This document shows positions 1,827 to 37,480 of a stretch of 64,000 nt of DNA, piece after piece. The notes under the pieces were generated by a model, which was not told the DNA's origin, did no database searches, and saw nothing but the letters and a program-made list of their open reading frames with translations. How positions within the stretch are numbered: the stretch's first letter is position 1; the number at the start of each line of letters is the position of its first letter. The translations under genes and the position numbers were made by a program. This stretch comes from Porpolomopsis calyptriformis (Eukaryota > Basidiomycota > Agaricomycetes > Agaricales > Hygrophoraceae), in contig OX621170.1 of the NCBI GenBank assembly GCA_951640195.1, positions 1,860,001-1,924,000 on the forward strand, read 5' to 3'.

Positions 1827-1984
1827 TGTCATGAAATTGGCGTTCACTCTCTTAAAGTTCCTCTCTTTTCGTCACTCTTTTCTTTTCTTTCTTATGCCTA
1901 TTCTTTTGGAGGAAGGGCTGTCTTTATTGGCAGTGGAAACTACTTGTACGAAAGGGGGAATCCATGTCCGACTAGCTAATTATA

Positions 1985-2814
1985 CTAGTCCATCTTGGCA
2001 ATCTCCTGCACCATACTATCCCTCAAGAACTCTACAAAACTCGACACTACTTGACCATCTATTGCGGCCAACTTATTACCCCAGTAGATTGCCCTATTGG
2101 TGTTACCACCGGAGGCCTGCAACTCGGCAGCCTTCCCTTCAACGAAACTCATCGCTATCTTTCTCGCTTCCTCACCCAACCAATCGTTGGTGGGACTCCA
2201 TAACAAACTGGGAGGAACTTCTTCCTCCTCGATCTTAACATTAACGTTAGTCAATGACGATGACAAATCTTCCACTAAGAATAAAGAGTCAACAATCACG
2301 AAGAGAGCAAGAGAATTAAGAGCTTACCACTAGATAAAGAACTCATTGGACCAGGGGTCCAAGGACGGAAGGGGGGACTGGCAGCCCAGTCGACTGCCTC
2401 CTTCTTGACAGAAGGGAGGGAATCAGCCCACTTGTCAGACCCCCAATTAACCTGCTCCTCCAAAGGGAGCTGGGAAGTAGGGGGAGGGGTGTCATCATCC
2501 CAAGCTAAGAAAGGGAAAGCCTATTATCAACAAACACAGACTAATAAAGACAAAACAAAATACTCACCAAGCGGATCCTCCATCAACCCGCAAGCATGCT
2601 GGATTGGCCAGCGAATGAACAGACACTTCTTGACTTTGTGCTTGCCACCGCAAGCGAAGCAGGAGAAGGAAGACCAACAGAGGTCGGCGTCGGAGGGGAT
2701 GCGCTGGAGGTAGTAGTGAAACGAATCACAATTGAGAAAGACAGGAGCAGTGCGGTGCACCACTCCAGACTGCTTGAAGAATCAGACGTAGTGGCCTTGG
2801 TGGGAGGGAGTCAT
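1985..2814 (-). pseudogene. Antisense three-exon gene in the U3 of the E LTR, copy 1 (one nonsense codon)
   Basis: Read on the minus strand. Exon 1 is 2568-2814 (247 nt), exon 2 is 2328-2504 (177 nt), exon 3 is 1985-2274 (290 nt). Introns are 63 and 53 bp with GTGAGT..TTAG and GTAAGC..TTAG ends. The exons sum to 714 nt, exactly 238 codons with the stop. A cysteine/histidine motif CX2CX3HX4C lies at residues 52-64, a one-residue-shorter variant of the retroviral zinc knuckle. Exon 2 is proline- and tryptophan-rich. Exon 3 is acidic, then helical-looking. Codon 11 is TGA (2782-2784) where the intact copy at 20399-21229 has CGA. Function is unknown. It could be a captured host gene or a regulator of the element. 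Confidence 0.7.
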
Positions 2815-2861
2815 GATGAATTGACAAGGATTGAACTGAAGTGTAGGGATACAACCCCACA

Positions 2862-2870
2862 CCTTTTATA
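2862..2870 (-). promoter_or_regulatory. TATA box of the antisense LTR gene
   Basis: TATAAAAGG on the minus strand lies about 50 nt upstream of the antisense ATG (2814). It is conserved in the other two copies (for example 21276-21284). Confidence 0.6.
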
Positions 2871-3010
2871 TGCTCAGACACAAAAGGAAGACCAAAAGGA
2901 GGTTCCTCAGTCAAAGAAGAGAAACCCGATACGCCAGACAAGAGATAGAAACAATGGCGATCTCATGACTAGAAGAACAATGGGAACCAGTCATGAGACA
3001 GCACAGCCTA

Positions 3011-3073
3011 ATACTGTGGAAGGCTATGCCCAATAGAGTTGAGTCATCAAAACAACACAGCCTTCCACAGTAT
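3011..3073. repeat. 15-bp perfect inverted repeat in the E LTR
   Basis: ATACTGTGGAAGGCT (3011-3025) is the reverse complement of 3059-3073, with a 33-nt spacer. It sits between the antisense TATA box (2862) and the sense TATA box (3173). Equivalent repeats are at 14260-14322 and 21425-21487. In the last copy both arms changed at position 3, keeping the pairing. Confidence 0.8.
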
Positions 3074-3172
3074 GACTAAGAACAATGGCAAACCTTAAAT
3101 CGGAAGCTGTGAACAATAGAAAATGGGGTGACTGCGGAGATTGACTCATAATGACTCCTATTTTAGAAATAC

Positions 3173-3180
3173 TATATAAA
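3173..3180 (+). promoter_or_regulatory. Sense TATA box of the E LTR
   Basis: TATATAAA is conserved in the three LTR copies (21586-21593 in the third). The predicted element transcript would start near 3205. Confidence 0.6.
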
Positions 3181-3532
3181 CCCTGAGGGCGAAGCGGATC
3201 ATCACTTCGTCCTCCTGTGAGATTACTTGTAGTAGCACGAATGCAATCAGAATCATCAGACTTCTTTTCCATCAGAACAAGAAAAGAGAAACACAAAACA
3301 CAACTACTGAGCCAACCGTTCATGCCCATATTCCCTAAACTCTCAGCAGAGGCACGCAACAGATTCAACCCGCAGAACAACTTCTTTGTAGAAGTAAAAC
3401 TTAATTCAGAAGGGATCATCACTCTATACGAAGACGTCCCTGTCAGAACTTTCTTCTACATCCTACTAGACTTATTGAGCTCCAAGGCCTGCCTTGTGAT
3501 TAATGAAAAGACTTGCAACTACAGTTGTGACA

Positions 3533-9645: not shown

Positions 9646-11748
9646 ATGCCTGCTGTACCAACATGAAAGCCCCGCGACAAGCCTGCACCCTATACCCGGA
9701 AACCTGGACCCAAGGGGAAACAACCAAGTGCCAGAGCGGCAACATCAGCCAAAACTCAGCCAGCAGATAAGCACAACAATCTCACCCTTCAAGACTGGAT
9801 GACCGTCTTCGCATTCATTGACTCCCACCCAACCCTTGGCCAACCAGCCATTGTTAAACATTTCAAGTCAAAAGTCGATGGTGCTCTTGTTTTTACCCAA
9901 TCTACTTTGTCACGCAAAATGAAGAACCGGGAAAGTCTTGAGGCCCGTGTACATGCCAATCCAAATGCTTTGAGCTCAAAGCATCCCCGTGTAGTGACCA
10001 GACCTGATGTAGAATGTGCCTTAGTGCTCTGGATGAGGTCTATGGAGGAGAAAAGAGAGATGGTTACTGGTCCAATGCTGGCAGAGAAACGAAAGCAGTT
10101 TGAAAAAGAGTTGAAGGTGCCACTAGAAGAGTGCCTTGTTGGTGAGGGTTGGATTCGAACTTTCTGCAAAGTGTGAGTTACACACAACACATGCTAATAC
10201 CTTTTTAACTAAACATAAAGGCAGATATAAGATCAAGGAGTATCGACGACACAGGGAAGCTGGATCTGTGGATCCTGCTGCAGTTGAGGCCAAGCAAAAA
10301 TGTGTGCAAGAAATTCTTGCACCATATGCTAAGAAAGACTGGTGGAATTTTGATGAATCTGGTCTCTTCGCATTTGCACCTCCAGACTGTGGACTAGTAA
10401 TGAAACAGATGAGCGGTAAAAAGAGAAGCAAGTTTCGGATCACCGTTGGCTTGGCTTGTAATGCAGATGGCAGTGAGAAAATGCTGCTCATATTCATTGG
10501 GAAGGCCAAGCAGCCGAGATGCTTCAAAAAAATAACCCCTGCAGACCGAGGCTTTTACTATCGCAATAATAAGAAAGCTTGGATGACATTAGACCTATTT
10601 GAGGAGTAAGTGGATGCAGCACATCTAGCTTCGAAACTTATGGTATAATATATAGGTGGATCCAGAAATTTGACTTGACAATGCGCCAGCAGAATCGTAA
10701 AGTCTGCCTTGTGATGGATAACTTCTCTGCTCACGAGATTGTATATGAGCCAACAAATGTGCAGCTTGAATTTTTCATGCCAAACTTAACGTCGTTTATC
10801 CAACCCTTGGATGCTGGCATCATCCGTTGCTTCAAAGCGCACTATCGACGAGGCTTTTGTAATCGAGCACTCGACCTTGACAATGCAGGGGAGCGAGATA
10901 TCTACAAGATCAATTTACTCGAGGCAATGTATATGGCAAAGGAAGCTTGGCGTGCCATTGATGCAACCACAATTGAACACTGCTGGAACCACACAGCCAT
11001 CCAGAGAGATCCTATCATGATCCGCATTCCTGCAACTTCTACCCCTGCGAAAATCACTTCGAATCCCCAAGAAGCGGTCGCTTGGGATATCATCCACGAA
11101 TTTGCAACAAGCGATATGTCCTTACCCCAGGCTGAACAAGCCTTGAAGGACCACCTTGCAGATGAAGATGCAGATACCAAGTGGAGACAAGCATTGGATG
11201 CTGTCATGGCTGCCGAAAACGATGTCAACATCGCCCTTGAAAATATCCACAAGATCCGACTTGCCTCAATGCAGAATCCATCTTCTGCTGGTCTTCCCCC
11301 TCAGCATGCTTCAACAGCTCAGTCTGAATTTGTTGAAGCAGAGCTGGTGAAGTCAGTGATCAAGTTGAAGGAGCGTAACCAGATTTTTGGACCAATTCCC
11401 ACCATTGATGAATTGATTGATTTGGCTGAAGAAGACGAGATTGGAGATTCCCCACACAGGTTTGAAGGTAGAGATGATGAGATTGTTGCCCAAGTCCTTC
11501 ACGAACAGGCTATAGAACGAGGAGAGGTCATTGAGGTTGAATCTGATGAGGAGGAGGATGAAAGCGGCACCTTAACTGTTGCCCAGATGATGGAGATGTC
11601 CAAGCAGCTTGAAATTGCGAGCCTTGGATGTGTTGCAGAAAGCTCTTTTGAGGTAGCGCAAGTCCTGCGTCACTTCCGGGCTGAGCTTGCGCAGACCGAG
11701 TTTCGTCGGGTAAAGCAGGTAACCCTAACCTCATTATGGCAGACGTAG
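9646..11748 (+). CDS. pogo/Tigger-type DDE transposase, three exons, one nonsense codon
   Basis: Exons 9646-10172, 10225-10605 and 10656-11748 are joined by 52- and 50-bp introns and sum to 2001 nt (666 aa), in frame throughout. The N-terminal part (residues about 45-175) resembles the CENP-B/Tigger helix-turn-helix region. The catalytic core has aspartates in WWNFDESGLF (about 10340), CLVMDNFSAH (about 10705) and SFIQPLDAGI (about 10795), the DDD pattern of pogo elements. The C-terminal third is acidic. A TGA at 9664-9666 (codon 7) looks like a decayed CGA. Translation from the ATG at 9799 would avoid it but drop 51 residues. This is the best-preserved DNA transposon gene here. Confidence 0.85.
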
Positions 11749-13800: not shown

Positions 13801-15507
13801 TGTCACAACTGTAGTTGCAAGTCTTTTTGTTAATCACAAGGTAGGCCTTGGAGCTCAATAAGTCTAGTAGGATGTAGAAGAAGGTTCTGACAGGGACGTC
13901 TTCGTATAGAGTGATGATTCCTTCTGAATTAAGTTTTACTTCTACAAAGAAGTTGTTCTGCAGGTTGAATCCATTGCGTGCCTCTGCTGAGAGTTTAGGG
14001 AATATGGGCATGAACGGTTGGCTCAGTAGTTGTGTTTTGTGTTTCTCTTTTCTTGTTCTGATGGAAAAGAAGTCTGATGATTCTGATTGCGTTCATGCTA
14101 CTACAAGTAATCTCACAGGAGGATGAAGTGATGATCCGCTTCGCCCTCAGGGTTTATATAGTATTTCTAAAATAGAAGTCACTATGAGTCAGCTTCCGCA
14201 GTCACCCCATTTTCTATTGTTCACAGCCTCCAGTTTAAGGTTTGCCATTGTTCTTAGTCATACTGTGGAAGGCTGTGTTGTTTTGATGACTCAACTCTAT
14301 TGGGCATAGCCTTCCGCAGTATCAGGCTGTGCTGTCTCATAACTGGTTCCTATTGTTCTTCTAGTCATGAGATCGCCGTTGTTTCTATCTCTTGTCCGGC
14401 GTATTGGGTTTGTCTTCTTTGACTGAGGAACCTCCTTTTGGTCTTCCCTTTGTGTCTGAGCATATAAAAGGTGTGGGGTTGTATCCCTACGCTTCAGTTC
14501 AATCCTTGTCAATCATTATGACTTCTTCCCACCAAGGCCACTACGTTTGATTCTTCAAGCAGTCTGGAGTGGTGCACCGCACCGCTCCTGTCTTTCTCGA
14601 TTGCGATTCGTTTCATTACTACCTTCAGCGCATCCCTTCCGACGCCGACCTCTGCTGGTCTTCCTTCTCTTGTTTTGCTTGCGGTGGCAAGCATAAGGTC
14701 AGAAAGTGTCTGTATGTTCGCTGGCCAATCTAGCATGTTTGTGGCTTGATGGAGGATCCGCTTGGTATGTATCTTGTTTTGTCTTTATTAGTCTGTGTTT
14801 ATTGATAATAGGCTTTCCCTTTTTAGCTTGGGATGATGACGCCCCTCCTCCCACCTCCAAGCTCCCTTTGGAGGAGCGAGTTGATTGGAGTTCCGACCGT
14901 TGGGGGTATCCCCTCCCCTTTGATGATGCTAAGCCTGAGGACTTGGCTACCAGCCCCCCTTTCCATCCTTGGACCCCTGGTCCAACAAGTGTTTTGTCTA
15001 GTGGTGAGCCTTTAACTCTCTCACTCTCTTCATAGTTGCTGATTCCCTGTCTTTTTTAGTTGAAGATTTGTCGTCGTCGTTGACCAACGTCAACGTCAAG
15101 ATCGAGGAGGAAGAAGTTCCTCCCAGTTTGTTATGGAGTCCCACCAACGATTGGTTGGGTGAGGAAGTGAGAAAGATAGCGATGAGTTTCATTGAAGGGA
15201 AGGCTGCCAAGTTGCAGGCCTCCGGTAGTGACACCAATGGGGCAATCTACTGGGGTAATAAGTTGGCCGCAATAGATGGTCAAGTAGTGTCGAGTTTTGT
15301 AGAGTTCTTGAGGGACAGTATGGTGCAGGAGATTGCCAAGACAGACTAGTATAATTAGCTAGTCGGACATGGACTCCTCCTTTTGTACAAGTAGTTTCCG
15401 CTGCCAATAAAGACAACCTTCCTCCCAAAAGAATTGGTATAAGAAAGAAAAGAAAAGAACAAAGAAAAGAGAGGAATTTTAAGAGAGTGAACACCAATTT
15501 CATGACA
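13801..15507 (-). mobile_element. Solo LTR of family E, copy 2 (TSD TCACG)
   Basis: 1707 bp, TGTCACAACT to TTTCATGACA on the plus strand, the exact inverse of 1827-3532. TCACG lies at 13796-13800 and 15508-15512. No internal E sequence is left, so LTR-LTR recombination probably removed the body. Confidence 0.92.
14518..15349 (+). pseudogene. Antisense LTR gene, copy 2 (two nonsense codons)
   Basis: Exons 14518-14764 (247), 14827-15003 (177) and 15060-15349 (290) have exactly the lengths of the other copies, with GTATGT and GTGAGC donors and TTTTAG acceptors. Codon 11 is TGA and codon 72 is TAG. Exon 2 differs strongly in amino-acid sequence from copies 1 and 3, yet has no insertion or deletion. 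The zinc-knuckle-like residues of exon 1 are kept. A TATA box lies just upstream (14462-14470). Confidence 0.65.
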
Positions 15508-20101: not shown

Positions 20102-20239
20102 GCTGCAAGCACTGTCAACAGGACTTCTCAATGCATTTTATGATGAATCAAATAGTATTCTATGTATATACTATACAGTACAAGGTGTAATTGCAGGTGC
20201 TGATATTGCTCACCCTAGACCTGGTGTCCTGAAGCCTCC
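20102..20239. other. Unassigned sequence between element F and the E solo LTR
   Basis: Continues the sequence interrupted by F (left of 8622). No gene seen. It ends in CCTCC, the target of the E solo LTR, and resumes at 21947-21972. Confidence 0.45.
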
Positions 20240-21946
20240 TGTCATGAAATTGGCGTTCACTCTCTTAAAATTTCTCTCTTTTCTTCGTTCTTTTCTTTTC
20301 TTTCTTGTGAACAGTTCTTTTGGGAGGGAGGCTGTCTTTATTGGCAGTGGAAACTACTTGTACAAAGGGAGGAGTCCATGTCCGACTAGCTAATTATACT
20401 AGTCTGTCTTGGCAATCTCCTGCACCATACTGTCCCTCAAGAACTCTACAAAACTTGACACTACCTGACCATCTATTGCGGCCAACTTATTACCCCAGTA
20501 GATTGCCCCATTGGTGTCACCACCGGAGGCCTGCAACTCGGCAGCCTTCCCCTCGACGAAACTCATTGCTATCTTCCTCGCTTCCTCACCCAACCAATCG
20601 TTGGTGGGACTCCATAACAAACTAGGAGGAACTTCTTCCTCCTCGATCTTAACGTTGACATTAGTCAACGACAATGACAAATCTTCCACTAAGAATAAAG
20701 AGTCAACAATCACGAAAGAGAGTGAGAGAATTGAGAGCTTACCACTAGATAAAGAACTCATTGGACCAGGGGTCCAAGGACGGAAGGGGGGACTGGCAGC
20801 CCAGTCAACTGCCTCCTTCTTGACAGAAGGGAGGGAATCAGCCCACTTGTCAGACCCCCAATTAACCTGCTCCTCTAAAGGGAGCTGGGAAGTAGGGGGA
20901 GGGGCGTCATCATCCCAAGCTAAGAAAAGGAAAGCCTATTATCAACAAACACAGACTAATAAAGACAAAACAAAATACTCACCAAGCGGATCCTCCATCA
21001 ACCCACAAGCATGCTGGATTGGCCAGCGAACGAACGGACATTTCTTGACTTTGTGCTTGCCACCGCAAGCGAAACAGGAGAAGGAAGACCAACAGAGGTC
21101 GGCGTCAGAGGGGATGCGCTGGAGGTAGTAGTGAAACGAATCGCAATCAAGAAAGACAGGAGCAGTGCGGTGCACCACTCCAGACTGCTTGAAGAATCGG
21201 ACGTAGTGGCCTTGGTGGGAAGGAGTCATGATGATTGACAAGGACTGAACTGAAGCGTAGGGATACAACCCCACACCTTTTATATGCTCAGAAACAAAGG
21301 GAAGACCAAAAGGAGGTTCCTCAGTCAAAGAAGAGAAACCCGATACGCCGGGCAAGAGATAGAAACAACGGCGATCTCATGACCAGAAGAACAATAGAAA
21401 CCAGTCATGAGATAACATAGCCTCATTCTGCGGAAGGCTATGCCCAATAGAATTGAGTCATCAGAAGCACACAGCCTTTTGCAGAATGACTAGGAACAAT
21501 GGCAAACCTTATTTGAAGGCTGTGAACAATAGAAAATGGGGTGACTGCGGAGGCTGACTCATAATGACTCCTATTTCAGAAATACTATATAAACCCTGAG
21601 GGCGAAGCGGATCATCACTTCGTCCTCCTGTGAGATTACTTGTAGTAGCACGAACGCAATCAGAATCATCAGACTTCTTTTCCATCAGAACAAGAAAAGA
21701 GAAACATAAACCCATAACTACTGAGCCAATTGTTCATGCCCATATTCCCTAAACTCTCAGCAGAGGCACGCAACGGATTTAACTCGCAGAACAACTTCTT
21801 TGTAGAAGTAAAACTTAACTCAGAAGGAATCATCACCCTTTACGAGGACATCCCCATCAGGACTTTCTTCTATATCCTACTAGACTTATTAAGCTCCAAG
21901 GCCTGCCTTGTGATTGATGAAAAGACTTGCAACTACAGTTGTGACA
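20240..21946 (+). mobile_element. Solo LTR of family E, copy 3 (TSD CCTCC)
   Basis: 1707 bp, TGTCATGAAA to GTTGTGACA, flanked by CCTCC at 20235-20239 and 21947-21951. It carries the only uninterrupted copy of the antisense gene. Confidence 0.92.
20399..21229 (-). CDS. Antisense LTR gene, copy 3: intact 237-aa protein, zinc-knuckle-like
   Basis: Exons on the minus strand are 20983-21229 (247 nt), 20743-20919 (177 nt) and 20399-20688 (290 nt), giving 714 nt with no internal stop. Introns are 63 and 54 bp with GT..AG ends. The start ATG lies about 50 nt after a TATA box (21276-21284). Residues C52, C55, H59 and C64 form CX2CX3HX4C, close to the CX2CX4HX4C knuckle of Gag proteins that binds nucleic acid. 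The middle exon is P/W/D-rich (AWDDDAPPP). The last exon has an acidic run (KIEEEEVPP) and a probable helix. I recognise no known family. Conservation of exon lengths across three copies argues that it is, or recently was, a real gene. Confidence 0.7.
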
Positions 21947-21972
21947 CCTCCATCCATTGTGAGTGTGGTGTC

Positions 21973-30497: not shown

Positions 30498-30856
30498 TGT
30501 TAGACGGCAGTCTAGGGTTGATCGCAAGGTTTTACTTCAGGCTCTGGGTGTAGGGTTTTAAAGGGTTGGAAGACTACTGATTGGGGTGTTAACGAAAGAA
30601 ACAGACTTATCCTAAGTCTATCTACTGCTAGCTTTATATACTAGCTAAGTATGAGTCATATTGACTACGTGTGAGTCGTAACGACTATGGATGAGTCATG
30701 TAGATAAGGAGAGTGATGGTTGACTAAATATAGATATGGCTTGGTCACCTTGTATTACTAAGCGGAGTTTGGGTGGCTAAGCGGCTATTGGTGTAAACTG
30801 TCTGATGTAAATGGGAATAGACGAGCAAAGGAAAAGGAAAAAATATATCTCTGACA
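30498..30856 (-). repeat. 3' LTR of A2
   Basis: 359 bp, TGTTAGACGG to TCTCTGACA. The purine-rich GTGGAGGTGAA on the minus strand abuts it (30857-30867). Confidence 0.95.
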
Positions 30857-31029
30857 TTCACCTCCACAAAAAGGAAATTCGTCCCGAATTTTGAGGAGAC
30901 CCTTCGAAGCGAAGGAAGGGTGTCAAGGGGAGGTGTAAAGGGATGGTAGAGGTGGGTAGAGGGGTGATGAGATGGGTGAGCGATGAAGAGGAGGGATGAG
31001 TGGATAGTTGTCGGATCAAAGACTATCCA

Positions 31030-31827
31030 CTAGGTATACTTTTCCTCAACTCTCCAGTAGATATCACCTTCTCTAACCACACATCCAGAAGGGAGGCGTA
31101 AGGAATACTGTTTGTTCGGAAACAGCATCCGGTCCCTAGGTCGCGCCATCATAAACTGGGGGTTGAAGCAGGTGTCCATCTGGGTCAAACCAGTGGTAAC
31201 GGCCATCCAACTCCCGGGCACGTCGCAACCAAGTTTCAGCCAGCTCCCTACACATCACAGCATTCTCCTCCAGGTCAAGGATCCTTTCGTACTTGGCATC
31301 CATCATCGAGCAGTACCCGTTTCGGGCAGCATAGAGTCGGTCGGCGACGCGATGGATGCGGTGCGAGATGGGGTCTTCGGGGATAGTGGGGGTGGTGACG
31401 TCGGATTCGTCCTGGTCCGGTATAACCATCAAAAGTTGGCGCCCAACTTGGTACGCCTCCAGCCAATCTTCGAGTTGATTCTTCTTGTCATCAAAGTTGC
31501 TGTCCTTGTCGAACGTGTACCAGTGACGGTCATAGTTAAGTTCGCATCAACGTGCTCCAGAGATAAAAGGGACATAGGTTTCGGGGCACCCAGATAGGTG
31601 CTCGACCTTGGCAAAGGGGAGCCCTCGGTAGTTACGGTTCGTCCCGGCTTGTCGATAGTATCGGTACGTCGTTTCGGCTTCTTGAACCGTTGGGTAACCA
31701 AGACACTGTCGGACGAGGAAGAGGAGGAAGAAGAATCGGGGGGGAGGTTGGAGGTAGAAGCGGTGGGATTCCCTCGAGGTGGACGCCTCCCAGTCGACTT
31801 GCGAGCATAAAGAACTTGGCGGGGCAT
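31030..31827 (-). pseudogene. Third ORF of A2
   Basis: Begins MPRQVLYARKSTG at 31827, 115 bp after the pol stop. It carries a serine run and a basic patch (FKKPKRRTD). A one-base deletion near 31640 relative to A1 shifts the frame, and a TGA follows in SGAR*CELNY where A1 has CGA. The reconstructed middle part (HWYTFDKDSNF, RILDLEENAVMCRELAETW) is helical and charged. The C-terminal RLPSGCVVREGDIYWRVEEK is in a third frame. No membrane segment or known domain is seen. Confidence 0.6.
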
Positions 31828-33966
31828 TTCGTGCTTCTTTTGATGATTGTCGGGAAGGGGAAGTCCTTATAATCATCGGAGATTGAAAAGGAGAAAAAGA
31901 GGCTCAACAATCGTGATGTCGGTAGTATTTGTGAAAGAGAGTTAAATCGCCGCTTGAATAGACTTTTCATAATTCATTAAGACATCTTTTGCGTGCTTGA
32001 GGTTCCATCGTGGTTCCCAGGTGGCTGCCTCTATTGGGTAGCCTTTCCACTTGATTAGGTATTGTCGGTTCCGTTTTCCTGGGGTGTGATTGAGAATACG
32101 TTCCACTTCATACTCGGGCTCTCCTTCGATCACATCTGGAGGTGGTCGGAGATTGTCATCTTCTCCGATCGGGGGGTGGAGATCGAGATTCTCTTCTAGA
32201 GCCTTGAGTAGCGAAACGTGAAACACGGGATGAATCCTCCATGACAGCGGTAGCTTTAGTTGGTAAGCCACAGGCGATACTTGTTTTAGAATTATAAAAG
32301 GTCCGAGCCGGCGGACATCCAGTTTCTTTGCGGGCCGGCCAGTTTTCAAATTCTTGGCATCAAGCCAGACCCTTTGTCCTTCGTAAAACGTGGGTTCCTT
32401 TTGATGTTTTCGATCGGCATAGAGCTTCATTGAGTTAGCGGTCTTTTGAAGAGACTCTTCAGCGTTCTCTCTAGCTCTAGTAAGCTGCACGTAAAACTCG
32501 TTGGCATCGGGATTTGAGGTTTGGGTTGGAACTGATAAGGGGGTGTGAGGGTGTCGGCCATATTCAAGCCAGAAGGGGGATTGGTGAGTAGAGGAATGTT
32601 CTCGGTTGTTATAAGCGAACTCCGCCGGAGCTAACCAATCTTTCCAATCGTCTTGCATGAAGTTAGTGTAGAGCCGTATGTACTGCTCTAACTCTTGATT
32701 GGTTCGTTCGGTTTGTCCATCTGTTTGGGGGTGATAGGCGGTAGAAAGCCCAGAAGTGGTTCCTAGGAGTTCATTCAATGACGTAGCGAACTTCGATGAG
32801 AATTGGGTTCCTCGATCAGTAATGATCTTCTCTGGCCATCCATGGTGCTTCCAGACATGTTCTTGAAATAGCGCAGCAGTTCCTTTAGCAGACAGGTTTC
32901 CAGTTGTTGGGATGAAGTGAGCCCATTTGGTGAATCTGTCCACCACAACTAGAATAGCATTGAATCCTTTTGAGTTAGGGAGTTCCACGATAAGATCAGC
33001 AGTGATCTGTTGCCACGGTTTAGTAGGAGGGGGTAACGGTTGGAGAAGTCCAGTGGGTTTCTGTGGATAAACCTTGGTCTGTTGACAGGCAAGGCAGGAC
33101 TTCACGTAATTGGTGATATCTTGTGGGGCACCTTCCCATGTGTAATTATGGAGGAGCAATTCCTTCGTCTTCTCAATACCGGGATGGCCACCAGTGGGTG
33201 TGTCGTGGGTCAATCGAATAATTTCTGTGCGCAAAGATACGTCCTTTGGCACAACTATACGATCTCCAGCATCGCGCACAATGCCATCTACGTGGGTGTA
33301 TCCGGAAGAGGGATCTTCAATTTTGGCCATGATCTCGAGAGGTAAGGGGGAATGAAAACAAAGCTTAGATAAAAAGTTGGGGGACGATAAACTGATAATC
33401 GCATTGATGAAAAGCGCATTGACAAAAAGTTCTTTTGGCAGAAGGACCTTGTCCTCCACCTCCTCATAAGACTCCGGGTAATGATCTGGACATTTGGAGA
33501 GTCCATCAGCCTTATTCTTGATTCTAGGCTGGTAGCTGATTCTGAACCAAAAGCGAGCTAAAAATTCAGACCATCTAGCCTGGCACCTGGAGAGTTGATG
33601 ACTGGTCATGAAATATTGGAGGGACTGGTTATCAGTCTTGATCATAATAGGCTGTCGTGTCCCTTGTAGAAGGTATCTCCATTCATTCAAGGCAGATATG
33701 ATGGCCAAAAGCTCTTGGTCATGGGTGGGGTAATTTCGTTCAGCTGGGAGGAGGGTCTTGGAGTAGAAGCCAATGGGATGCCAATCCTCTTTGTCATTCT
33801 CTTTCTGGGTCAAGACTGCACCCAGTGCAACACCAGAAGCATCCGTCTCCAGAAGGTAAGGAAGATTTGGCTTTGGGGTCCTCAAAACAGGAGCAGAGGT
33901 AAGCGCACTCTTGAGGGTATCAAAAGCACATTGTTGCCTAGGAGTCCAAATCCATTCTTGATCCTT

Positions 33967-33969
33967 TCA
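33967..33969 (-). other. Single in-frame TGA of A2 pol
   Basis: CTA TGA AAG. The identical codon context occurs in A1 (53310-53312). Element D has CGA at this position. Confidence 0.9.
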
Positions 33970-35519
33970 TAGGAGCTCATTAAGAGGACAAGCAATCAGG
34001 GAGTAATCCTTGATAAACCTCCGCCAAAAGTTGGCAGTGCCAAGGAAGGATTGGAGATCTCGTTTCTTCTGGGGGATAGGCCAGGTTCTGATCGCCTCAA
34101 CCTTCTTGGGGTTAATAGCAATGTGGCCTTTTGAGATCATCATCCCCAGATAAATCACTTCCTTTTTCTCGAACTGGCACTTGACGGGTTTGCAGGACAG
34201 TTGATTCTTCTCCATGATCTCTAGAGTTCGTTCTGTCCAATAGGTGAGTTCAGTGAGGTCCTTTCCCATGATCAGGATATCGTCAATATAGATATGGACC
34301 TGCTTGGAATCGATAACCTCTTTGAAGAGAACGTCGATCATTCGTTGGAAGGAGGCAGGCAAGTTTCGCATTCCAAAGAACATAACGGTGGGCTCGAACA
34401 GCCCTCGTCGAGTGTTGAAGGCTCCTTTCCATTCGTCTCCTTCTTTGATACGAATATTGTTAAAGCCCCATCGGATATCCATGACTGTGAACAGTTCCGC
34501 TTCTGATAACTTGGTCTGTTGAATAATCTCAGAGATGAGAGGTAAGGGATAGGCGTCTGGGATTGTGTGAGCATTCAGATAGCGATAGTCTTGGATTGGA
34601 CGTAGTCCAGCATCTTGTCCTTGGGCATTAACTTCTTCACCTTTGGCAGCAAAGAAGAAGGAGGCAGCTTGTTTGGAGTTCGATCGTCGTATTCGTCCAC
34701 TTGCAAGTTGTTCCTCCAGGAATTCATTCAGCTTTCCCTGTTCGTACTCAGTGAGTTTGTACACCTTTCCGATCTTGGGTCTAAAGGTAGGTTCGAGATC
34801 AATCGCATGGTCAAATTCTGGTCGTCGTGGGGGAAGTTCATCGAAGGTGGTCTTCATAAACACCTTCCAGTGCCTCCAGTATTTCTTCAGCACATACTTC
34901 TTCATATCTTCCTCCACGGTAGTGGGTCTTGCATGGTCTCCCAGTGAGACCAATCTGATAATCTTGGCGTAGGAGTCACCATTCAATGTAGAGCCTACTC
35001 GTGACACTATCACTCCAGCCTGAGAAGTCTTGGTTGGGGCCACAGTCTGACGTGAAGTCAGTGTTCCAGCCTTCCAGTCAACCAGGGGATCATTACGTTT
35101 GAGCCACGGGTAGCCGAGGATAACCTGTATCATATCTCCTAAATTTGTCACTTCCAAATGGGTTCGTTCCCTAAGAAAATCCGGCGTCTCCATCCACAGG
35201 TCTACAGCATATTCGATGGGACCTCCTCGGTTGTCTGTCCCATCTGCGTTCCGCACGGGGATTGGTCCTTCCAATCGATAAAAAGGGATATCGCGCTCCT
35301 GCACAAAATTCCAGTTTATAAAGCATCCAGAGGCGCCAGAGTCTATCAATGCACTGGCGGCAATTCGTCTACCAGTGTCTGTGGTTTCCAACCAAAGGGG
35401 TATGGTTAAAGCTTCTTCGCTTGAATCAAGTGCACCAAGAATTTGGGAAATAGATTGCATAGGGGTAGTGGTACACATAGAAAAGGAGTCCGCAATGCAC
35501 GAGCTATTGTCCGGACTGT

Positions 35520-36941
35520 TCAAAAACCCTGTTTCTCCAAAGCTCTCTTCAGCTCTTCTTTCCTCTTAGGCTCCCAGTTGACGATACCACACTTCTCGAA
35601 GTCTTGACGAGAATCTTCATTGGAGTTGACCTCCTCAATCGAGGCTGAGGTCTCCAGAACTCGAACATTTCTTCCTCGACTGGGTTTCTTTCCTCCACGA
35701 CCTCTAGCTGCTGGGGTGAAGGGGCGGCTTCCAGAACCAGAAGTACTCGTCCTAGGAGCATTGGGACAAGAACTGGCAAAGTGGCCAAATCGTCCACAGT
35801 TGAAACATGCTCCTTTGGGAATTCCTCCTAGTGAAGCAGGCTTTTCTTCTTGTTTGATTCTGGGGGCAGCAGGGTTGGAATAGGTGGAGGGACCAGCAGG
35901 TGGTCCTTGTCGGTAGGGGGTGTTGGTGATGCGGGTGTTACAAGTCTGGGGCTTAGAAGATGTTCTAGCCAGGAATTCTCGATGTCGTCTGTCAAGTTCT
36001 GCAGCACGAGACTGCCATTCAAAGAGGGTGGTGGGTTGACGATCTGAAAGGTAGATCTGTCGCAAAAGGGAGGGGTTGAGTCCGTCTTTATACAAAGTCA
36101 CCGAAGCTTCTTGTCTGTATCCAGTATCATGGGCCCATCGATTGAAATTGATGTTGTACTCCTCTGCGCTCTTGTTGAACTGCTTGACGTCCTTGATCTT
36201 CAGTTGAGCAGTTGACTTGGGGTCCAAGTCTCCAAAGTCTCGGGTGAGGGCTTGTTCAAAGACAGCCCAATCGGCACCAACCCAGTTCAACGTTGTGTAA
36301 GCGTCTACTTGACGCTCAGCCCATGGTTCTGCATTTCCTCCGATCATAAACGACAAGGCATAGATAATCTTGTCGGCCTCTGAGATTCCTGGTCGTCCCA
36401 AATGATTCAACTTCACTTGACGCAGGAAGTTGCAGAGCTTGGTGGGATCACCAGAGAATTCGTCAGGAGGGTTCATTTTGATCTTGGCGGGGGCAGGGGC
36501 AGGGGCAGGGACAGGGGCAGGGGCAGGGACAGGTTGGGGGAATACTGGGGGTGCTTGGAGAGGTTGTGGGAATAGCCCAAGAGGGGCAGGGACAGGTTGG
36601 GGGCCTATGAGGTTGGCCATCAATACTTGAAGTTGTTGTTCGATTCTATGACTCACTTGCGCTTGGTCTTGTTGGACCTGCAGCAATTGTTGATAATCCT
36701 GCTTCATGATCTCAAAGGCTACGCGTGGATCTTCTTCTTCATCCTCATCATTGTCCTCAGCTCGACCTTTCCCTTTTGAGTGAGAGGGACCTGCTTGTTC
36801 TTCTTGTTCTTGTTCTTCTTCTTCTTGGGCAGGGTCAACCGTCTCGTCGAGGATGGGAGCTGGGGCAGGAGGGAGAGAGCCTTCCTGGGAGAGAGGGATA
36901 GCAGGGTGAGGGATAGTGGATGATGAACGAGTCAAAACCAT
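35520..36941 (-). CDS. gag: Gag of A2, intact
   Basis: The first ATG in frame (36941, MVLTRSSST) gives 473 aa. The N-terminus is proline-rich and acidic, with an E/Q run. The proline/alanine/valine repeat (about 36480-36600) precedes the capsid-like domain (KIKMNPPDEFSGDPTKL onward). One CCHC knuckle (CFNCGRFGHFASSC, about 35766-35807) and an R/G-rich segment follow. The frame ends in the slippery GGGTTTT then TGA. Gag forms the particle and its knuckle binds the element RNA. This is the only complete gag in the window. Confidence 0.92.
   Translation of the reverse strand: MVLTRSSSTIPHPAIPLSQEGSLPPAPAPILDETVDPAQEEEEQEQEEQAGPSHSKGKGRAEDNDEDEEEDPRVAFEIMKQDYQQLLQVQQDQAQVSHRIEQQLQVLMANLIGPQPVPAPLGLFPQPLQAPPVFPQPVPAPAPVPAPAPAPAKIKMNPPDEFSGDPTKLCNFLRQVKLNHLGRPGISEADKIIYALSFMIGGNAEPWAERQVDAYTTLNWVGADWAVFEQALTRDFGDLDPKSTAQLKIKDVKQFNKSAEEYNINFNRWAHDTGYRQEASVTLYKDGLNPSLLRQIYLSDRQPTTLFEWQSRAAELDRRHREFLARTSSKPQTCNTRITNTPYRQGPPAGPSTYSNPAAPRIKQEEKPASLGGIPKGACFNCGRFGHFASSCPNAPRTSTSGSGSRPFTPAARGRGGKKPSRGRNVRVLETSASIEEVNSNEDSRQDFEKCGIVNWEPKRKEELKRALEKQGF
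35523..35529 (-). promoter_or_regulatory. -1 frameshift site GGGTTTT (A2)
   Basis: Gag frame G GGT TTT TGA. The -1 frame reads GGG TTT TTG AAC into pol. The same site occurs in A1 at 54866-54872. Confidence 0.8.
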
Positions 36942-37109
36942 TGGTGGAACGGTGGCAGTTGGATATTGGGGGGCTTGACGGGAATACAAGGGGAGAGAGC
37001 AAGTCTAATTGATGTTAATGTCTGGGTGGTGAAATTGATCTCGTGGGTGAAGACCTTCAGCACTGGCCAGACAGAGTAGGGGTTGTATAGCGTGGAGTGA
37101 GCAAGAAGG

Positions 37110-37122
37110 AAGTCTGTTTCTT
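37110..37122 (-). promoter_or_regulatory. Self-complementary primer-binding site of A2
   Basis: AAGAAACAGACTT on the minus strand, beginning at the last LTR base, is the perfect 13-nt complement of LTR positions 37220-37232. That segment starts 32 nt after TATATAAA (37257-37264). Confidence 0.78.
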
Positions 37123-37480
37123 GTTAGACGGCAGTCTAGGGTTGATCGCAAGGTTTTACTTCAGGCTCTGGGTGTAGGGTTTTAAAGGGTTGGAAGACTA
37201 CTGATTGGGGTGTTAACGAAAGAAACAGACTTATCCTAAGTCTATCTACTGCTAGCTTTATATACTAGCTAAGTATGAGTCATATTGACTACGTGTGAGT
37301 CGTAACGACTATGGATGAGTCATGTAGATAAGGAGAGTGATGGTTGACTAAATATAGATATGGCTTGGTCACCTTGTATTACTAAGCGGAGTTTGGGTGG
37401 CTAAGCGGCTATTGGTGTAAACTGTCTGATGTAAATGGGAATAGACAAGCAAAGGAAAAGGAAAAAATATATCTCTGACA
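37122..37480 (-). repeat. 5' LTR of A2
   Basis: 359 bp. Promoter TATATAAA at 37257-37264 on the minus strand. Confidence 0.95.

Follow-up and report, generated by a model that had tools for sequence, protein, structure and literature searches.

Evidence that selection keeps intact an antisense gene with two intron-like gaps in the U3 of a fungal chromovirus LTR

Results

The window analysed here, a stretch of 64,000 nucleotides from Porpolomopsis calyptriformis, holds three copies of the LTR of one retrotransposon family, E. Copy 3 (20240..21946, plus strand) is a 1.7 kb solo LTR of an E-family chromovirus that starts with TGTCATGA and ends with TTGTGACA, has TG...CA ends and is flanked by a 5-bp target duplication, CCTCC, at 20235-20239 and 21947-21951. 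Copy 2 (13801..15507, minus strand) is also a solo LTR, with the target duplication CGTGA. Copy 1 (1827..3532, plus strand) has a polypurine tract directly upstream, which identifies it as the 3' LTR of a full element whose start lies beyond the left end of the window, where the contig also carries an RT match and an LTR-primer-site junction. A frame resembling DDE_1 superfamily transposases occupies 10675-11748, between LTR copies 1 and 2. Two other pairs of LTR-like direct repeats, of 359 and about 600 bp, are present in the window, and at 30498-37480 on the minus strand stands another Gypsy chromovirus, with three long gag/pol frames and 359-bp LTRs that are 99.7% identical, which is probably a recent insertion.

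The minus strand of copy 3 carries, inside the LTR, a complete gene. Read in its own direction it has a TATA box (ATATAAAAGG, 21276..21285), an ATG at 21229, exon 1 of 247 nt (20983..21229), intron 1 of 63 nt (20920..20982), exon 2 of 177 nt (20743..20919), intron 2 of 54 nt (20689..20742), exon 3 of 290 nt with the stop codon (20399..20688) and the poly(A) signal AATAAA (20337..20342); both introns are GT-AG and their lengths are those of copy 3. Because a TATA box stands upstream of the ATG and AATAAA lies past the stop, a full transcription unit fits inside the LTR. The coordinates, exon lengths, TATA box and CX2CX3HX4C motif listed in the initial annotation are all there in the sequence of copy 3, and the frame reads open for 237 aa, as had been claimed. 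Exons of 247, 177 and 290 nt were likewise found in all three window copies, with one in-frame stop in copy 1 and two in copy 2. Across 60 aligned copies the TATA box of the antisense gene is identical in 57, and the poly(A) signal reads AATAAA in at least 42 and AACAAA in at least 14, both counts being lower bounds from the six commonest forms. We regard as confirmed that a real and complete minus-strand gene, with TATA box, ATG, three exons, two GT-AG introns, stop and AATAAA, lies within this LTR, and we infer from these signals that it is transcribed and spliced.

The internal region of one full element (L045) encodes gag, protease, RT, RNase H, integrase and Chromo in that order (Pfam; Chromo E 1e-15), and by this domain order the E-family element is a Ty3/Gypsy chromovirus. 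The two LTRs of an element differ at 24 of 1708 sites in L045 and at 35 of 1706 in L044. Among the matches listed (150 scored of 892 candidates), the nearest RT outside the E family is at most 58% identical. Four other elements were fetched, three of which have LTR pairs of 369-479 bp; the fourth (L067) has only a 67-bp cut end. The sense TATA box of the E element (21585..21595, plus strand) is identical in 60 of 60 copies, and 21 bp past its end starts CACTTCGTCCT (21616..21626, plus strand), a putative self-primer that complements the primer-binding site. That site starts 2 nt after the 5' LTR and is complementary to CACTTCGTCCT over 11 nt in the three elements examined (3/3). In Tf1-type self-priming, an 11-nt primer is complementary to the 5' end of the element RNA. 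The E element would thus be self-priming as well, its RNA starting near 21616 as judged from the TATA box, and given such a start U3 would span about 20240-21615 and contain the whole antisense gene. The two TATA boxes lie about 300 bp apart and point away from each other; between them stand TGAGTCA (21454..21460) and TGACTCA (21555..21561), each in 48 of 49 copies, TGASTCA sites of U3 that we take to be AP-1/GCN4-like.

Past U3, a second constrained frame was noticed on the sense strand. It starts in U5 (MPIFPKLSAEA..., 21736-21946, plus strand) and continues past the LTR in six elements (L044, L045, L048, L081, L082 and L083), crossing the primer site to reach a length of about 167 aa and overlapping the apparent gag start in another frame. 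Its pN/pS is 0.131, the two remaining sense frames giving 1.08 and 1.93, its LTR part is stop-free in 47 of 49 copies, and all six elements share the same end stop, with earlier stops in L045 and L083.

Genome-wide (33.5 Mb in 17 contigs), the final 20 bases of the LTR matched at 253 places with at most 2 mismatches, and a control gave no match. Junctions between LTR and primer site numbered 16, and those between polypurine tract and LTR 18 (22 bases each, at most 3 mismatches). Counting two LTRs per element, LTR ends outside full elements outnumber the full elements by some 14 to one, a ratio that includes fragments and rests on slightly unequal search thresholds. The 253 ends beside 16 primer-site junctions speak of many solo LTRs or fragments and few full elements. 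Three E LTRs (L011, L019 and L030) are apparently nested in other E LTRs. Two pairs of copies, L038 (C9:443644) with L039 (C1:3656989) and L046 (C1:3715095) with L051 (C9:385776), share the same 12-nt flanks on each side, which speaks for a duplicated segment or an assembly duplication and against separate insertions.

The 60 copies aligned were selected mainly by their similarity to copy 3, a choice that favours intact copies. A first set of 42 comprises the 40 full-length rows among 45 matches listed together with window copies 1 and 2; a second set holds 18 of 20 copies picked from protein matches, L062 and L064 having been dropped as interrupted. A 5-bp target duplication on both sides, as in solo LTRs, marks 32 of the 42 first-set copies. 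The whole antisense frame is intact in 25 of the 42 and in 33 of all 60, a share that is biased upward since the first set consists of the best matches to copy 3. GT-AG is kept at both introns in 59 of 60 copies, the exception (L061) having lost one splice site. The initial annotation had named frequent frame-breaking exon indels as grounds for giving up the gene. Across the first 42 copies not one frameshifting indel occurs in the 714 exon nt, a single 3-nt deletion is the sole variation in exon length, and the non-exon part, 1021 alignment columns, shows 40 distinct gap intervals. Frame-breaking exon indels do occur in 3 of the 18 second-set copies (L056, L057 and L061), and L058 is cut short.

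Does the protein matter, or only the DNA? Pairwise counting was applied to the 49 of 60 copies whose exons all measure 247, 177 and 290 nt; of the other 11 copies, seven have in-frame deletions of 3 or 6 nt and four (L056, L057, L058 and L061) are damaged or truncated. The true antisense frame gives pN 0.033 and pS 0.235, a pN/pS of 0.139; in the two remaining antisense frames the ratio is 1.66 and 1.58. All three exons score low (0.162, 0.194 and 0.102 for exons 1, 2 and 3), so that the ratio near 1 which had been set down as counting against the gene lies far above what we find. Read as codons, the region 21230-21946, which includes a real sense frame, gives 0.41-0.88. A codon model fitted by maximum likelihood to 28 intact copies gives an omega of about 0.28 (0.23-0.41 by exon). 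For comparison, the element's RT has a pN/pS of 0.129 over 13 copies, 8 of them with stops (a count that excludes the family's two partial RT matches). Introns and flanks diverge by 0.06-0.14 vs 0.235 at synonymous sites, and parts of them must therefore also be constrained or homogenised; intron 2 is the most variable block of the LTR. Purifying selection on the antisense protein is clear. One could object that the open frame arose by chance, mirrored from coding constraint on the sense strand of the same DNA, as there is a 205-aa open frame on the plus strand, and one of the three sense frames (1.34, 0.201 and 1.78), the mirror frame whose third positions coincide with those of the gene, also scores low. 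However, the antisense frame scores lower than its mirror, its exon ends fall on GT-AG, TATA box and AATAAA stand at the right ends, and in the first 42 copies length variation in other than multiples of three is confined to introns and flanks; we hold such mirroring to be extremely improbable.

When this selection acted can be read from the sharing of variants among 47 copies, L039 and L051 having been dropped as sharing flanks with L038 and L046, respectively. Variants present in three or more copies comprise 95 synonymous, 57 missense and 1 nonsense, vs 36 synonymous, 57 missense and 6 nonsense among the 99 private ones (Fisher p = 1e-4, with related copies that are not independent). The 44 variants found in exactly two copies are intermediate (21, 17 and 6, respectively). 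Given that common variants are mostly synonymous and private ones are not, constraint acted during multiplication of the family and is largely relaxed after insertion, a timing that presumes private variants mostly post-date insertion; the private synonymous share (36/99) still exceeds the neutral one of about 26%, hand-worked from variant counts. Constraint during multiplication points to the element rather than to a host copy. A captured host gene that serves the host, its copies kept by host-level selection (domestication), would account for introns, TATA box and poly(A) signal of host-gene kind and for the 33 intact copies. Against this, private stops, 6 of 99, are near the neutral share (about 4% expected, hand-worked), so single copies decay after insertion, and 27 of 60 copies are not intact; domestication is in our view quite improbable. 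The protein matches listed from the same genome are filled by the E family.

Exon 2 had been described as diverged between copies without any indel, and so it is: between copies 2 and 3 the two types are of equal length and 64% identical in the middle, and exons 1 and 3 are 91% and 94% identical. The divergence is not private decay of copy 2, since a 124-base piece of its exon 2 recurs at 98-100% identity in all 40 places scored, out of 249 candidates; both sequence types have been amplified. Within an LTR that is otherwise more uniform, exon 2 and intron 2 thus exist in two diverged types (about 14823-14999 of the window and 39 further places), which looks like exchange with a diverged sister lineage of the element. 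Genes of the second type carry two stops in copy 2, one in the L004 copy and several in the part present in L030; the L008 piece, in part of the second type, has exons 1 and 2 open and ends without exon 3.

The 237-aa protein is Cys/His-rich at its N-terminus, acidic and rich in proline in the middle and conserved at its C-terminus. Its motif CX2CX3HX4C, CFACGGKHKVKKC, lies in exon 1, and among 25 exon-1 peptides there is no variation at C29, C52, C55, C64 and C75 and almost none at H59 and C46; the N-terminus is probably zinc-binding. The canonical retroviral zinc knuckle is CX2CX4HX4C, so the exon-1 spacing is one residue short, and with no zf-CCHC match in Pfam either, the motif is not a retroviral CCHC knuckle. 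Pfam gives no match to the full protein up to E 10, hence no bZIP domain of the HBZ kind; exon 1 alone gives zf-CHY at E 0.067, and 5 of 25 exon-1 peptides match it, the best at 0.039, far below the cut-off. Neither exon 1, exon 3 nor the sense ORF has a family in NCBIfam, and PDB profile searches with exons 1 and 3 gave a best E of 0.75, treated as chance. The search against fungal proteins that the initial annotation had called for, run on a protein collection that includes basidiomycetes (Trametes, Phanerochaete, Dentipellis) and by a method that requires shared 5-residue words, gave no homologue (0 of 295 candidates at E <=10), and an exon-1 alignment confirmed 0 of 37 candidates there. 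Viral contigs yielded 93 pattern matches, none confirmed. By tblastn the best hit in the four other fetched Gypsy elements was at E 0.01, not a good match, and in the window outside the three LTRs at E 0.65. Derivation from a duplicated Gag knuckle was considered and rejected: exon 1 does not align with the Gag-knuckle ORF of L044, and the Gag region of two other elements gave only E 0.01 and 0.026.

Discussion

Taken together, the data support a U3 antisense gene with two intron-like gaps that is kept intact by selection. We consider it highly probable that E is a self-priming chromovirus with a complete accessory gene on the opposite strand of its U3, and that the protein of this gene acts for the element itself. 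On this account U3 would be a divergent promoter, from which genomic RNA would run rightward from the TATA box at 21585, and the accessory mRNA leftward from that at 21285, to be spliced twice and to end at AATAAA, still inside the LTR. The rightward transcript would run clear of the accessory gene in solo LTRs and in the 5' LTR; genomic RNA would cross U3 in the 3' LTR only, where the introns read CT...AC. Being backwards in genomic RNA, the introns should stay unspliced, and since they are not removed, reverse transcription would give each daughter element an intron-containing copy of the gene in both of its LTRs, strand transfer renewing U3 at both ends. That antisense placement would protect the introns is a sound deduction from this layout.

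The same overlap in the 3' LTR admits another explanation, in which the antisense RNA is the functional product, pairing with the 3' end of genomic RNA and feeding silencing or interference, and the frame is incidental. RNA silencing by antisense transcripts has been raised for other LTR elements, according to excerpts of PMC7264820. Pairing, however, needs no codon constraint, and the frame has it; exon indels are rare and splice sites are kept. We therefore judge a role of the RNA alone highly improbable and return to the protein as the product.

What might this protein do for the element? A small, probably zinc-binding protein under a constraint like that of RT is best read as an accessory factor. 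Tentatively, we picture a protein that binds nucleic acid and regulates either LTR expression or the RNA of the element, a role that the present data do not separate from packaging or integration; a helper in packaging or integration would be our next choice. Some 200 LTR ends lie outside full elements, and many sampled LTRs still have the whole gene. It is conceivable, if doubtful, that solo LTRs remain a source of a protein that acts in trans on the few full elements left, controlling or helping them, in which case the element would seed the genome with its own regulator at each recombination out. Regardless, the locus suggests that a complete, spliced protein gene can travel as cargo in an LTR and share one divergent promoter with the element. 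As LTRs outlive elements in the form of solo LTRs, such a gene is multiplied and preserved as gag-pol is not, and annotation that masks LTRs will miss it.

Several known systems share part of this design. HTLV-1 HBZ and HIV-1 ASP are antisense protein genes read from LTR-associated promoters, HBZ being spliced; most of their coding sequence lies outside the LTR, whereas that of the E gene lies inside, and the likeness is one of layout. MMTV sag is a protein gene largely within an LTR, as here, yet it is in sense orientation and the E gene in antisense. Tf1/sushi chromoviruses share the 11-nt self-primer and a chromodomain integrase, and we know of no U3 antisense gene in chromoviruses of that type. 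Among fungi, the Boty element of Botrytis cinerea was reportedly found by Zhao and colleagues in 2011 to have an antisense gene, brtn.

The available parts of PMC7264820 and PMC8365987 place brtn between pol and the 3' LTR. Both brtn and the E gene are thus extra genes antisense to gag-pol in a fungal LTR element; compared by description only, brtn sits in the internal region, and the E gene is confined to U3, is interrupted by two introns and survives in solo LTRs. According to the excerpts of PMC7264820, the plant antisense ORFs of Grande (gene23), RIRE2, Retand and PvRetro13 also lie between pol and the 3' LTR, and gene23 is driven by an upstream promoter of its own and yields a nuclear product; like the E gene they are antisense accessory ORFs of undefined function, and they differ in their internal position and in being from plants. 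The E gene, inside the LTR and in U3, is not of the aORF-3R type of brtn and gene23, and it belongs with antisense accessory ORFs in the broad sense, as an antisense coding frame conserved across family copies. The role of such genes in LTR elements is not yet determined according to the same excerpts (PMC7264820), and E offers a tractable case. Cassandra, Helenus and Ajax, as far as the partial text of PMC10886601 goes, are non-autonomous elements with small-RNA sequences and (likely) Pol III promoters in the LTR; they too hold gene-derived sequence inside an LTR that is copied to both ends, and differ in encoding no protein.

Open-licence PMC keyword searches of titles and abstract starts returned no antisense protein gene inside a fungal LTR, which is weak evidence of absence. 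The view of the initial annotation, that no fungal LTR gene of this kind had been described, therefore stands in part: antisense genes in fungal LTR elements are already established by brtn, and what appears new against the literature searched is a spliced gene wholly in U3, with its own promoter and poly(A) signal, that is carried by solo LTRs.
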